Below, piece by piece: positions 12,681 to 14,505 of a DNA stretch of 64,000 nt (position 1 is the stretch's first letter; each line of letters opens with the position of its first letter). The notes under the pieces are model-generated. The model had not been told where the DNA came from and ran no database searches. It saw only the letters and a program-made list of their open reading frames with translations. Position numbers and translations under genes: made by a program. The stretch comes from Draconibacterium aestuarii. GTDB taxonomy: Bacteria; Bacteroidota; Bacteroidia; Bacteroidales; Prolixibacteraceae. Location of the stretch: NCBI GenBank assembly GCA_026671195.1, contig JAPOHD010000027.1:310001-374000 (forward strand), read 5' to 3'.

Positions 12681-13061
12681 ATGGACGGTAAATATTCAAA
12701 ATACTTTTCAGAAAAATCGCTTTGGGATAAGATTAAAAGGTATTCGAAAGAAGCCGGAGAAAAGGTAATTTACGCCGTTTTGTTGTTGTTTTACACCATG
12801 CAGGATAAAAGTGTAAGTGCAAAGGCAAAACTCGGAATTGCTGCTGCGCTTGGCTATTTTATTTTACCCACCGATGCAATCTTCGATCTCACTCCTCTAA
12901 TTGGTTTTTCAGATGATTTAGGGGTTTTACTTTTTATCCTTTCTCAGGTATCGGCCAGTATTACGCCTGAAGCAAAGCAAAAAGCCCGAATAAAGTTATA
13001 TGACTGGTTTGGAGAGATTGATATTGACCAACTTCAAAACATAGAAAATAAGACTATTTAG
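12681..13061 (+). CDS. DUF1232 / YkvA family membrane-associated protein
   Basis: 126 residues. The core (about 45-90) holds the DUF1232 signature, including LGYFILPTDAIFDLTPLIGFSDDLGVL, which carries the typical P-D-x-I-P-like turn and two hydrophobic segments. The remaining N- and C-terminal parts are charged and helical. The family is widespread and uncharacterised. It follows dusB by 20 bases and probably shares its transcript. Nothing unusual was seen in its codon or base use by eye. Confidence 0.85.
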   Translation: MDGKYSKYFSEKSLWDKIKRYSKEAGEKVIYAVLLLFYTMQDKSVSAKAKLGIAAALGYFILPTDAIFDLTPLIGFSDDLGVLLFILSQVSASITPEAKQKARIKLYDWFGEIDIDQLQNIENKTI

Positions 13062-13070
13062 GAATTTTTC

Positions 13071-13099
13071 ACTACTAGGTTAACAGAGGTTAAAGTAGT
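13071..13099. repeat. Inverted repeat upstream of the sigma-54 promoter
   Basis: ACTACT (13071-13076) and AGTAGT (13094-13099) flank a stretch with a direct repeat of GGTTAA. It lies 17 bases before the sigma-54 -24 element. It could be a protein-binding site, but enhancer sites for sigma-54 activators are usually further upstream, so this is tentative. Confidence 0.25.
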
Positions 13100-13115
13100 T
13101 GGATTCTGTATGTTA

Positions 13116-13131
13116 TGGCACGTGCTTTGCA
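13116..13131 (+). promoter_or_regulatory. Sigma-54 (RpoN) promoter, near-perfect consensus
   Basis: TGGCACG (13116-13122), four bases, then TTGCA (13127-13131) match the sigma-54 consensus TGGCACG-N4-TTGCW at every fixed position. The invariant GG (13117-13118) and GC (13129-13130) have the obligatory 10-base gap. Transcription would begin about 12 bases beyond the GC, near 13142. It lies 55 bases after the DUF1232 stop codon and points toward a dyad-rich stretch ending in an intrinsic terminator, not toward a nearby protein gene. Activity would require RpoN and an AAA+ activator, neither of which is encoded in this window. Confidence 0.6.
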
Positions 13132-13141
13132 AAGATGCAGA

Positions 13142-13310
13142 TAGTTGCATATGTTGCAATTAAAATATTTTAATACAGATAGGACTGAGTAGAAGTTTTA
13201 AGTTACAGTTTAAACTGTAAAGATGGTTTTTGTTTTTTGTTTTTATTACGAAGGTTCCCCTCCTTCGAATTGTTAGCTTAAATAGCTCCGTTATGCGGGG
13301 CTATTTTTTT
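13142..13310 (+). ncRNA. Candidate sigma-54-dependent small RNA (about 170 nt)
   Basis: The stretch between the predicted sigma-54 start site and the intrinsic terminator at 13281-13310 has no reading frame longer than 13 codons from an ATG (13151). It contains a row of dyads: TTGCA/TGCAA hairpin (13145-13159), a perfect 14-bp palindrome (13160-13173), a perfect 18-bp palindrome TTACAGTTTAAACTGTAA (13203-13220), a CGAAGG/CCTTCG hairpin with 7-base loop (13249-13267), and the terminator stem. A T-rich single-stranded segment (13226-13246) separates the second palindrome from the last two hairpins. Seen: promoter, structure, terminator. Inferred: a regulatory RNA. It does not resemble SRP RNA, tmRNA or RNase P RNA, and the long end-to-end pairing of 6S RNA is absent. 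Confidence 0.45.
13281..13310 (+). terminator. Intrinsic terminator of the candidate small RNA
   Basis: AATAGCTCCG (13281-13290) pairs with CGGGGCTATT (13296-13305) with one G-U pair and a 5-base loop, followed by a T-run to 13310. It is too far from the DUF1232 stop (220 bases) to be an ordinary end of that operon, which supports an independent transcript. Confidence 0.85.
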
Positions 13311-13758
13311 ACGGTTTTGTTCTGAATAATTCAGTATAATGGAAAATTCGCTCCAAGCTCAGCTAGATTAGAACAGTCCGGCAATAAATCGACGAATCAA
13401 TTTTATCTCTTTACATCAATCCTGCAATAAAACAACAATTGCTTGATGATTCATTATCAGGTTCCTTATGCTTTTTTACCTTACACAAAACTTCTTTATA
13501 TACGTAGTTAAAATTATAACTGTAGTTACATTTAACCCGTATCCACATGACGAATATTTAATACAAAGCCAATATACCGGCCACTTTTACGGCAATGGCA
13601 AAACAAACTAACAGGCGATGGTTTCGGGATTCTTTTCTCCGGGGAAAGCGCTAACCGAAAATTATATGTTAATTTCAATAAAACAATGTTCATTCGTTTT
13701 CGGGCAAAGTTTTGCGTTGAATAAATTTTCAATACTTTAGTGTCTTTTCAAAATTTAT
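13311..13758. other. Gene-free stretch before the TauE/SafE gene
   Basis: About 450 bases with only short frames without recognisable similarity. A TACTTTAG sequence near 13733 is a one-mismatch -7 box for the downstream gene. No repeat, RNA gene or pseudogene could be supported. Confidence 0.5.
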
Positions 13759-14505
13759 ATGCTCGAATTTGATTTTTCAGTTATTCAGTGGATCCTGCTT
13801 GCCGTCTGTGGTATGTTTGTGGGAATGTCGAAAGTAGGGATACCCGGGGTTTCCATGTTGGTTGTGCCCACTTTGGCTATTATTTTTGGGGGAAAAGCAT
13901 CTACCGGCATTTTACTCCCAATGTTAATGATGGCCGATATTTTTGCCGTAAGTTATTACCATCGTCATGCCGAGTGGAAATATTTATGGAAACTACTACC
14001 CTGGGCATTTGTAGGGATCGGAATTGCTTTGTGGGTAGGCGAGGTGGTAAACGATATCTGGTTTAAGAATATAATTGCCATTCTGGTATTTCTATGTATT
14101 GGTTTAATGCTTTGGAAAGATCGCCGGAAGGGAAACAACCTTTTCCCCGACACTTTGTGGTTTGCTGCATCGATGGGAGTTTTAGGAGGATTTGCAACCA
14201 TGATTGGTAATGTGGCAGGACCCATTTTTGCTATTTATTTATTGGCTATGCATCTTCCAAAAAATAGTTTTATCGGAACCGGGGCATGGTTTTTTCTCAT
14301 TGTTAATTTCTCAAAATTTCCGCTTCATATTTTTGTCTGGAAAACCATCAGTTGGCATACCTTAACGCTCGATCTTTTAATGTTGCCAGGTATTGCCATT
14401 GGCGCCTTTCTGGGAGTACAACTGGTAAAACGTATATCGGAGGGTTTATACCGCACCGCAGTAATTATAATAACCGCCTTATCGGCCTTTTTACTTTTAA
14501 TCTAA
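13759..14505 (+). CDS. TauE/SafE family (sulfite exporter-like) membrane permease
   Basis: 248 residues and about eight hydrophobic segments. The repeated signature of the family is visible: GMSKVGIPGVSMLVVP near the N-terminus (about 22-37) and MIGNVAGPIFAIYLLA in the second half (about 152-167). Members export or import small anions such as sulfite, sulfoacetate or related organosulfur compounds; the substrate here is unknown. The stop codon overlaps the start of the methyltransferase gene (TAATG), so the two are co-translated. Length is normal for the family. Confidence 0.88.
   Translation: MLEFDFSVIQWILLAVCGMFVGMSKVGIPGVSMLVVPTLAIIFGGKASTGILLPMLMMADIFAVSYYHRHAEWKYLWKLLPWAFVGIGIALWVGEVVNDIWFKNIIAILVFLCIGLMLWKDRRKGNNLFPDTLWFAASMGVLGGFATMIGNVAGPIFAIYLLAMHLPKNSFIGTGAWFFLIVNFSKFPLHIFVWKTISWHTLTLDLLMLPGIAIGAFLGVQLVKRISEGLYRTAVIIITALSAFLLLI

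Follow-up and report, generated by a model that had tools for sequence, protein, structure and literature searches.

The DNA analysed here, a stretch of 64,000 nucleotides from Draconibacterium aestuarii (the window), contains a spacer between genes for a DUF1232 protein and a TauE/SafE permease in which a sigma-54 promoter precedes a predicted small RNA. The features of this interval, given as window coordinates and strand, are:

12681..13061, +, upstream gene for a DUF1232 protein (PF06803)
13080..13093, no strand assigned, palindrome TTAAC-AGAG-GTTAA, predicted from its conserved arms and spacing to be the site of a sigma-54 activator (bEBP)
13116..13131, +, sigma-54 -24/-12 promoter TGGCACG-N4-TTGCA (TGGCACGTGCTTTGCA)
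13142..13310, +, predicted small RNA of ~169 nt, its 5' end placed from the promoter spacing and its 3' end from the terminator
13142..13163, +, predicted 5' hairpin of variable sequence (from the fold)
13203..13220, +, 18-bp palindrome forming the middle hairpin, its position kept in 16/19 loci
13225..13244, +, unpaired U/G tract GGUUUUUGUUUUUUGUUUUU, a candidate seed or protein-binding site
13249..13267, +, hairpin CGAAGG...CCUUCG (from the fold and the alignment)
13267..13278, +, unpaired conserved stretch GAAUUGUUAGCU (from the alignment)
13281..13310, +, intrinsic terminator, with two-sided changes in 5 of 10 modelled pairs
13733..13740, +, TACTTTAG, 26 bp upstream of the ATG of TauE and probably the -7 box of a promoter belonging to that gene
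13759..14505, +, downstream gene for a TauE/SafE permease (PF01925), the next large ORF on this strand

Conservation of the palindrome and promoter

The initial annotation had placed a sigma-54 promoter at TGGCACG-N4-TTGCA, and we find it there with GG (13117-13118) and GC (13129-13130) at the 10 bp -24/-12 spacing, from which transcription would start at approximately 13142. The rarity claimed for this string did not withstand a genome-wide count. The exact string occurs once in the 64 kb of the window, where allowing up to three mismatches gives 41 matches versus 48.9 expected, and in the whole 6.37 Mb genome TGGCAY-N5-TTGCW has 14 matches versus 12 for the pattern read backwards. As this realistic consensus is not enriched genome-wide, the promoter motif alone is weak evidence, and the count favours a reading in which the string is a chance resemblance in spacer DNA and the terminator belongs to DUF1232.

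A second element, overlooked by the initial annotation, is the palindrome TTAAC-N4-GTTAA, which ends 22 bp before the promoter and gives the window both a -24/-12 element and a dyad upstream site at fixed geometry, as expected of a sigma-54 transcription unit. A search of 140 genomes of the family for palindrome and promoter separated by any spacer of 14-24 bp returned one match each in 28 genomes, versus 1/140 for the reversed pattern used as control; conservation therefore lifts the promoter above chance. Those 28 comprise 26 genomes of the same genus together with G156 and G092, and among the 26 same-genus matches the distance from palindrome to TGG is 21-22 bp in 24 and 15 bp in G010 and G014. 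Conservation of GG and GC, which had been proposed as a check, was borne out in part: TGG and TTG are kept in all 19 aligned loci, but the base after TTG is C in only 11 of them (T in five, A in three). The palindrome reads TTAAC-N4-GTTAA in most loci, with variants such as TTAATAGCGGTTAA (L003), TTAATAGAAGTTAA (L012) and TTAAGAGACGTTAA (L014). Its arms are mostly kept while the four middle bases vary (AGAG, ACTC, ATTC, GAAA and others), a pattern that would fit a dimer site. As the predicted activator site it is the best clue to regulation of the RNA, and its distance from the promoter is shorter than that of many known sites of this kind.

The wider unit is similarly distributed. BLAST of 13050-13330 gave matches in 20 of 61 genomes, its own included, of which 19 are from the same genus; the match in G059 consists of the terminator only. 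All 19 aligned loci share one order of elements: a TTAA-type palindrome, 21-22 bp, TGGCAY-N5-TTG, a variable 5' region, the U/G tract, a GAAGG/CCUUC-type hairpin, CUUCRAAUUGUUAGC and the terminator. A covariance model (R1), built from 17 sequences for the 3' portion of the RNA, was run against the 140 family genomes. It gave matches at E <=1.9e-14 in 21 of the 37 genomes of the genus, among them the genome of the window with a single match, and these 21 share the palindrome and promoter as well as the U/G tract, hairpin, GAAUUGUUAGC and terminator. In five further same-genus genomes, palindrome and promoter stand at the locus while the RNA body has diverged or is a different one. Diverged versions lie behind DUF1232 in G010, G014 and G031, and in G018 and G021 a different RNA follows the promoter, behind which TauE was not seen; in G021 (L147/L173, after 1551) an apparent insertion-sequence gene cuts the RNA body shortly behind the promoter. 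Across the genus, the promoter unit is thus at the locus in 26/37 genomes, elsewhere in two (G025, G027) and not found in nine: the inspected spacer behind DUF1232 is without it in G001, G011, G015, G016, G019, G022 and G026, and neither the unit nor DUF1232 was found in G023 and G035. Diverged versions are also present in G156, the same spacer as L026 (Tangfeifania), and behind DUF1232 in G162, where there are a sigma-54-like site and a U/G tract, with no palindrome noted. The chance reading is at odds with a palindrome, a promoter and a core of the RNA that are all conserved across the genus, as it is with G032, where DUF1232 lies 16 kb away from the RNA and the unit stands without it; we regard it as very improbable. 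Loss of the promoter or stems from close relatives, named by the initial annotation as a sign against its interpretation, was not what we observed: promoter, RNA core and terminator are conserved.

Over 393 genomes of the order, R1 gave only six matches besides the own copy, at E 8e-4 to 0.008. Of these six the one inspected, L106 (~620-735), has no promoter in that stretch and is antisense to a gene start (AAAAAACAAAAAACAATG), an illustration of how similar the U/G tract is to the complement of an A/C-rich translation start. Within the family, R1 also gave one weak match in a genome of another genus (L105, E 0.0068), which was rejected; it lies beside an Hsp20-like gene, with no promoter in the stretch inspected. 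Separately, behind DUF1232 in L154, L155, L156 and L158, from genera g45 and g39, a TGGCAT/C site resembling a sigma-54 element is followed not by an RNA but by a gene that reads as encoding a secreted W-rich protein.

Elements of the predicted RNA and its separation from TauE

The stretch behind the promoter had been described as dyad-rich, non-coding and terminated. Nucleotides 13140-13312 fold at -41.8 kcal/mol versus a mean of -30.2 (z -3.7), better than 200/200 dinucleotide shuffles, and the terminator was found at 13281-13310 as given. The 18-bp palindrome that had been singled out is present at 13203-13220, but its sequence is not conserved in relatives; the middle hairpin folds in 16/19 homologues and ranks among the top 5% of shuffles in just four of the 19. 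Compensatory changes were likewise found in some stems only: the terminator stem has them, whereas covariation in the 5' hairpin was not significant. Both modelled helices together have 19 cells with two-sided changes versus a shuffled mean of 6.2, a number reached in 0/500 shuffles, although these counts refer to sequences rather than events, and a single switch affecting a whole clade accounts for much of the signal; in 10 of the 17 sequences the two outer pairs of the terminator do not form. The most constant parts of the RNA are unpaired, namely the U/G tract and GAAUUGUUAGC, the former being nearly invariant in the main clade and having related tracts in L115, L119, L120 and L153. No Rfam family reached its gathering score anywhere in the window and nothing relevant appeared at E<=10; the RNA family is new to Rfam 15, in keeping with its earlier designation as a candidate new RNA.

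No open reading frame conserved in length and frame was found among the homologues of the predicted RNA, which agrees with the non-coding assignment. This bears on the possibility that a short Phe-rich leader peptide (MVFVFCF...) is translated from the RNA, for which it can be said that an ATG-MVFVFCF frame of at least 8 codons is present in 13/19 homologues and that a PSNC end recurs in five of the 19 (L001, L008, L010, L011, L012). The frame nevertheless ranges from 10 codons to open, has no such ATG version in L010, L012, L014, L018 and L019 and is shorter than 8 codons in L017, and in many homologues CUUCGAAUUGUUAGC, which is conserved, comes after the stop or is out of frame. As the constancy crosses stops and frames, the constraint appears to act on RNA rather than peptide, and translation of such a peptide seems most unlikely.

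The downstream gene TauE, or part of it, lies behind the RNA in 19/19 aligned loci and begins 46-132 nt past the modelled RNA end in 14 of them (443 nt in the window; four were unmeasured). Such proximity would fit a cis-acting arrangement in which TauE is transcribed from the sigma-54 promoter, with the RNA as its 5' leader and the terminator as an attenuator. Several observations argue otherwise. A TAnnTTWG box (TAnnTTTG or TAnnTTAG; the -7 consensus is TAnnTTTG, PMC9723704) is kept behind the terminator, 24-28 bp before the TauE ATG, in 20 of the 22 examined loci with the promoter-RNA unit, the two others being L153 and L010, which has no intact TauE; the box is present in 5/11 loci without the unit. 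The terminator forms with pair probabilities >=0.97 in 21/21 sequences, and a competitive alternative pairing was found in none of these 21, since pairing of its left arm with upstream sequence yields -0.3 to -7.4 kcal/mol versus -15.6 to -21.1 for the terminator. TauE is also found without the RNA, adjacent to DUF1232 in L116, L122, L123, L132, L137, L138 and L140. Finally, in G033 (L010, 1597-1809) the RNA is intact (R1 E 7.8e-16) and is immediately followed by all that is left of TauE, residues 178-248, the first 177 residues being gone; because of this truncation we lowered what was already a small probability for the leader arrangement, and consider it unlikely. In the window itself, 13321-13700 appears as extra DNA between the terminator and the TauE promoter box.

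The predicted RNA has a predicted promoter and a terminator of its own, no conserved ORF and independence from its neighbours. Taken together, the conserved promoter, core and terminator, the compensatory changes in the terminator and the lack of an Rfam family support the earlier small RNA interpretation, and we put the probability that 13142-13310 is a stand-alone, sigma-54-dependent non-coding sRNA at roughly 0.7. Comparison among relatives supports the promoter, palindrome, RNA core, terminator and separation from TauE that enter into this prediction.

Candidate activator, proposed mode of action and target searches

The genome of the window encodes six full-length bEBP ATPase domains. TTAAC-N4-GTTAA was sought around all six genes and found at none, while the looser TTAAY-N4-RTTAA occurs once near them, as TTAATCCGCGTTAA (L083, 4152-4165), 9 bp behind the C55 bEBP gene. 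In G092 (L159, 1501-1750) a palindrome-promoter pair and a terminated stretch are divergent from a bEBP gene whose product is 58.5% identical to the C55 bEBP, its closest match in the genome of the window. A C55-like bEBP may be put forward as a candidate activator, as a lead only, and the G092 site itself may be due to chance. With up to two mismatches, the palindrome has 19 matches in the own genome versus 28 for the control, so a wider palindrome regulon is not seen there. On the minus strand of L191 (1501-1550), a palindrome and sigma-54-like pair is oriented divergently to a gene whose translation resembles that of rpoN itself.

For the steps of RNA action, from transcription, the identity of the activator and the stress signal to pairing and targets, we infer the following scheme. 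A bEBP bound at the palindrome (13080-13093) would activate sigma-54 RNA polymerase at 13116-13131, and transcription would end at 13281-13310, ahead of the promoter that belongs to TauE. The working surface of the RNA would be its unpaired U/G tract together with the GAAUUGUUAGC stretch; the U/G tract would pair with a small number of envelope-protein mRNAs at their A/C-rich translation starts and block their translation as FopS does, which represses SusC mRNA by pairing at the mRNA 5' region (PMC11697453). The trigger would be a sigma-54 stress of protein quality or the envelope. Such stress is a likely signal because the sigma-54 regulon of Flavobacterium psychrophilum consists largely of chaperones, Lon and envelope proteins, and includes the putative regulatory RNA Rfp36 (PMC9723704), and because a sigma-54-like site precedes a Lon-like gene in the own genome.

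We rate the base-pairing step at a little under even odds. Pairing of the U/G tract with 126 own-genome translation starts was no better than that of the tract's shuffles, and a mild pairing signal against random positions was discarded when it disappeared under the shuffle control. Across six genomes, the complement of the tract occurs at 45 sites (including six sRNA copies) versus 49 for the reversed control; three of the 24 sites inspected out of the 39 non-self sites abut an ATG. In G034 and G013 the ATG of a MacB/FtsX permease gene abuts a one-mismatch complement of the tract, making this permease the best candidate target as a lead, although not every shuffle falls short of this match. 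In eight genomes, GAAUUGUUAGCU has four perfect partners beyond the sRNA itself, and the three inspected are unlike each other. The target tests were negative or at most suggestive, and no convincing target emerged.

The same absence of enriched pairing with translation starts, together with the near invariance of the U/G tract in the main clade, would also suit a variant of the stand-alone sRNA in which base pairing plays no part and the tract instead serves to titrate or recruit a protein that binds RNA, of the RRM type seen in RbpB. Against this variant speaks the anti-start element carried by the FopS-like RNAs that follow the same type of promoter, and we give the variant a minor share of the probability.

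Related promoter-RNA pairs and known sRNAs

The palindrome-promoter pair also stands before other RNAs. In G025 and G027 it lies between divergent LepA-like and convergent oxidoreductase-like genes (named from their translations) and is followed by a stretch ending in UUUUUUCAUAAGUUUGGUUUAGUUAGGUUUAGUUUGA and a terminator; Rfam made no FopS call here, the likeness being by eye. On the minus strand of loci L172 and L175 (~1501-1720), both from same-genus genomes, the pair precedes a non-syntenic RNA that has a FopS-like UUUUUUCAUAAGUUUGG element, and behind this RNA no gene was found on that strand. In another family, f30, 17 palindrome-promoter sites occur in 9/60 genomes versus 1/60 for the control. 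Fourteen of these belong to genus g191, where seven of nine genomes have one to five copies each with spacers of 21-22 bp, and all 14 precede UUUCAUAGAUUAGG-type FopS-like units, one unit at two sites and two at the other 12. The unit reads UUUUUCAUAGAUUAGGUUAGGGUUUAGG, and the g191 loci are L239 (1501-1760), L188, L189, L194, L195, L240-L243 and L245-L249. The remaining three f30 sites precede a similar unit (L238), a Lon-like gene (L237) and another terminated stretch (L244). Three g191 loci were given to Rfam for comparison and two matched, the nearest model being FopS at sub-threshold scores (L241, 34.3 bits; L239, 31.1 bits; versus 56). The g191 unit looks antisense to translation starts, as its reverse complement reads as an A/C-rich leader, ATG and AAA AAA. 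An order-wide search for the pair gave 10 sites in 8/393 genomes versus 1/393 for the control: the own site, four with FopS-like RNAs in g191, and five that lie next to or within genes or in AT-rich spacer. Sigma-54-like sites also stand directly before Lon-like protease genes in three genomes, the own genome (L067, ~950, minus strand) and those of L192 and L237, which agrees with the Flavobacterium regulon as published.

Small RNAs under alternative sigma factors include enteric GlmY/GlmZ and the sigma-E sRNAs MicA/RybB, and sigma-54-dependent sRNAs are known in proteobacteria. The predicted window RNA resembles GlmY/GlmZ and MicA/RybB in being an sRNA under an alternative sigma factor. The initial annotation knew of no RpoN-controlled sRNA in Bacteroidota, yet Rfp36 of F. 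psychrophilum, a putative regulatory RNA with a predicted sigma-54 (SM4) promoter, is already listed (PMC9723704, Table 2). Our literature search for sigma-54-driven sRNAs in Bacteroidota returned this one listed case, with no function assigned, and the main text of a computed sigma-54 regulon (PMC12316311) contains none of the terms sRNA, small RNA, non-coding or ncRNA. Rfp36 and the window RNA are alike, when compared by description rather than sequence, as putative Bacteroidota RNAs under predicted sigma-54 promoters; they differ in that no activator site is named for Rfp36 in the available text of PMC9723704. FopS/GibS of Bacteroides (RF04319) is likewise a Bacteroidota sRNA with an unpaired stretch before its terminator (PMC11697453), and in g191 FopS-like elements lie behind the same palindrome-sigma-54 pair. 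FopS differs in having a housekeeping sigma-ABfr promoter, a length of ~65-70 nt and 14 copies (PMC11697453), whereas the window RNA has no match to RF04319 even at E 10 and one R1 match in its own genome. A sigma-54-driven sRNA is thus already known as a kind, and the window family itself is absent from Rfam.

These occurrences permit a joint reading, which we offer tentatively and consider less probable than not, that a single sigma-54 activator of Bacteroidales binds TTAAY-N4-RTTAA 21-22 bp upstream of the -24 box and serves mainly to control sRNAs, with one sRNA per genome in the genus of the window and up to five FopS-like, mostly tandem sRNAs in the other family. It would constitute a sigma-54 envelope-stress arm that represses the synthesis of exported proteins, a possible counterpart of the enteric sigma-E/MicA-RybB loop. 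Given a conserved family whose activator site can be recognised, one can test whether Bacteroidota respond to protein or envelope stress by switching on sRNAs through sigma-54, and the palindrome provides a DNA motif with which the activator and more such sRNAs may be found.
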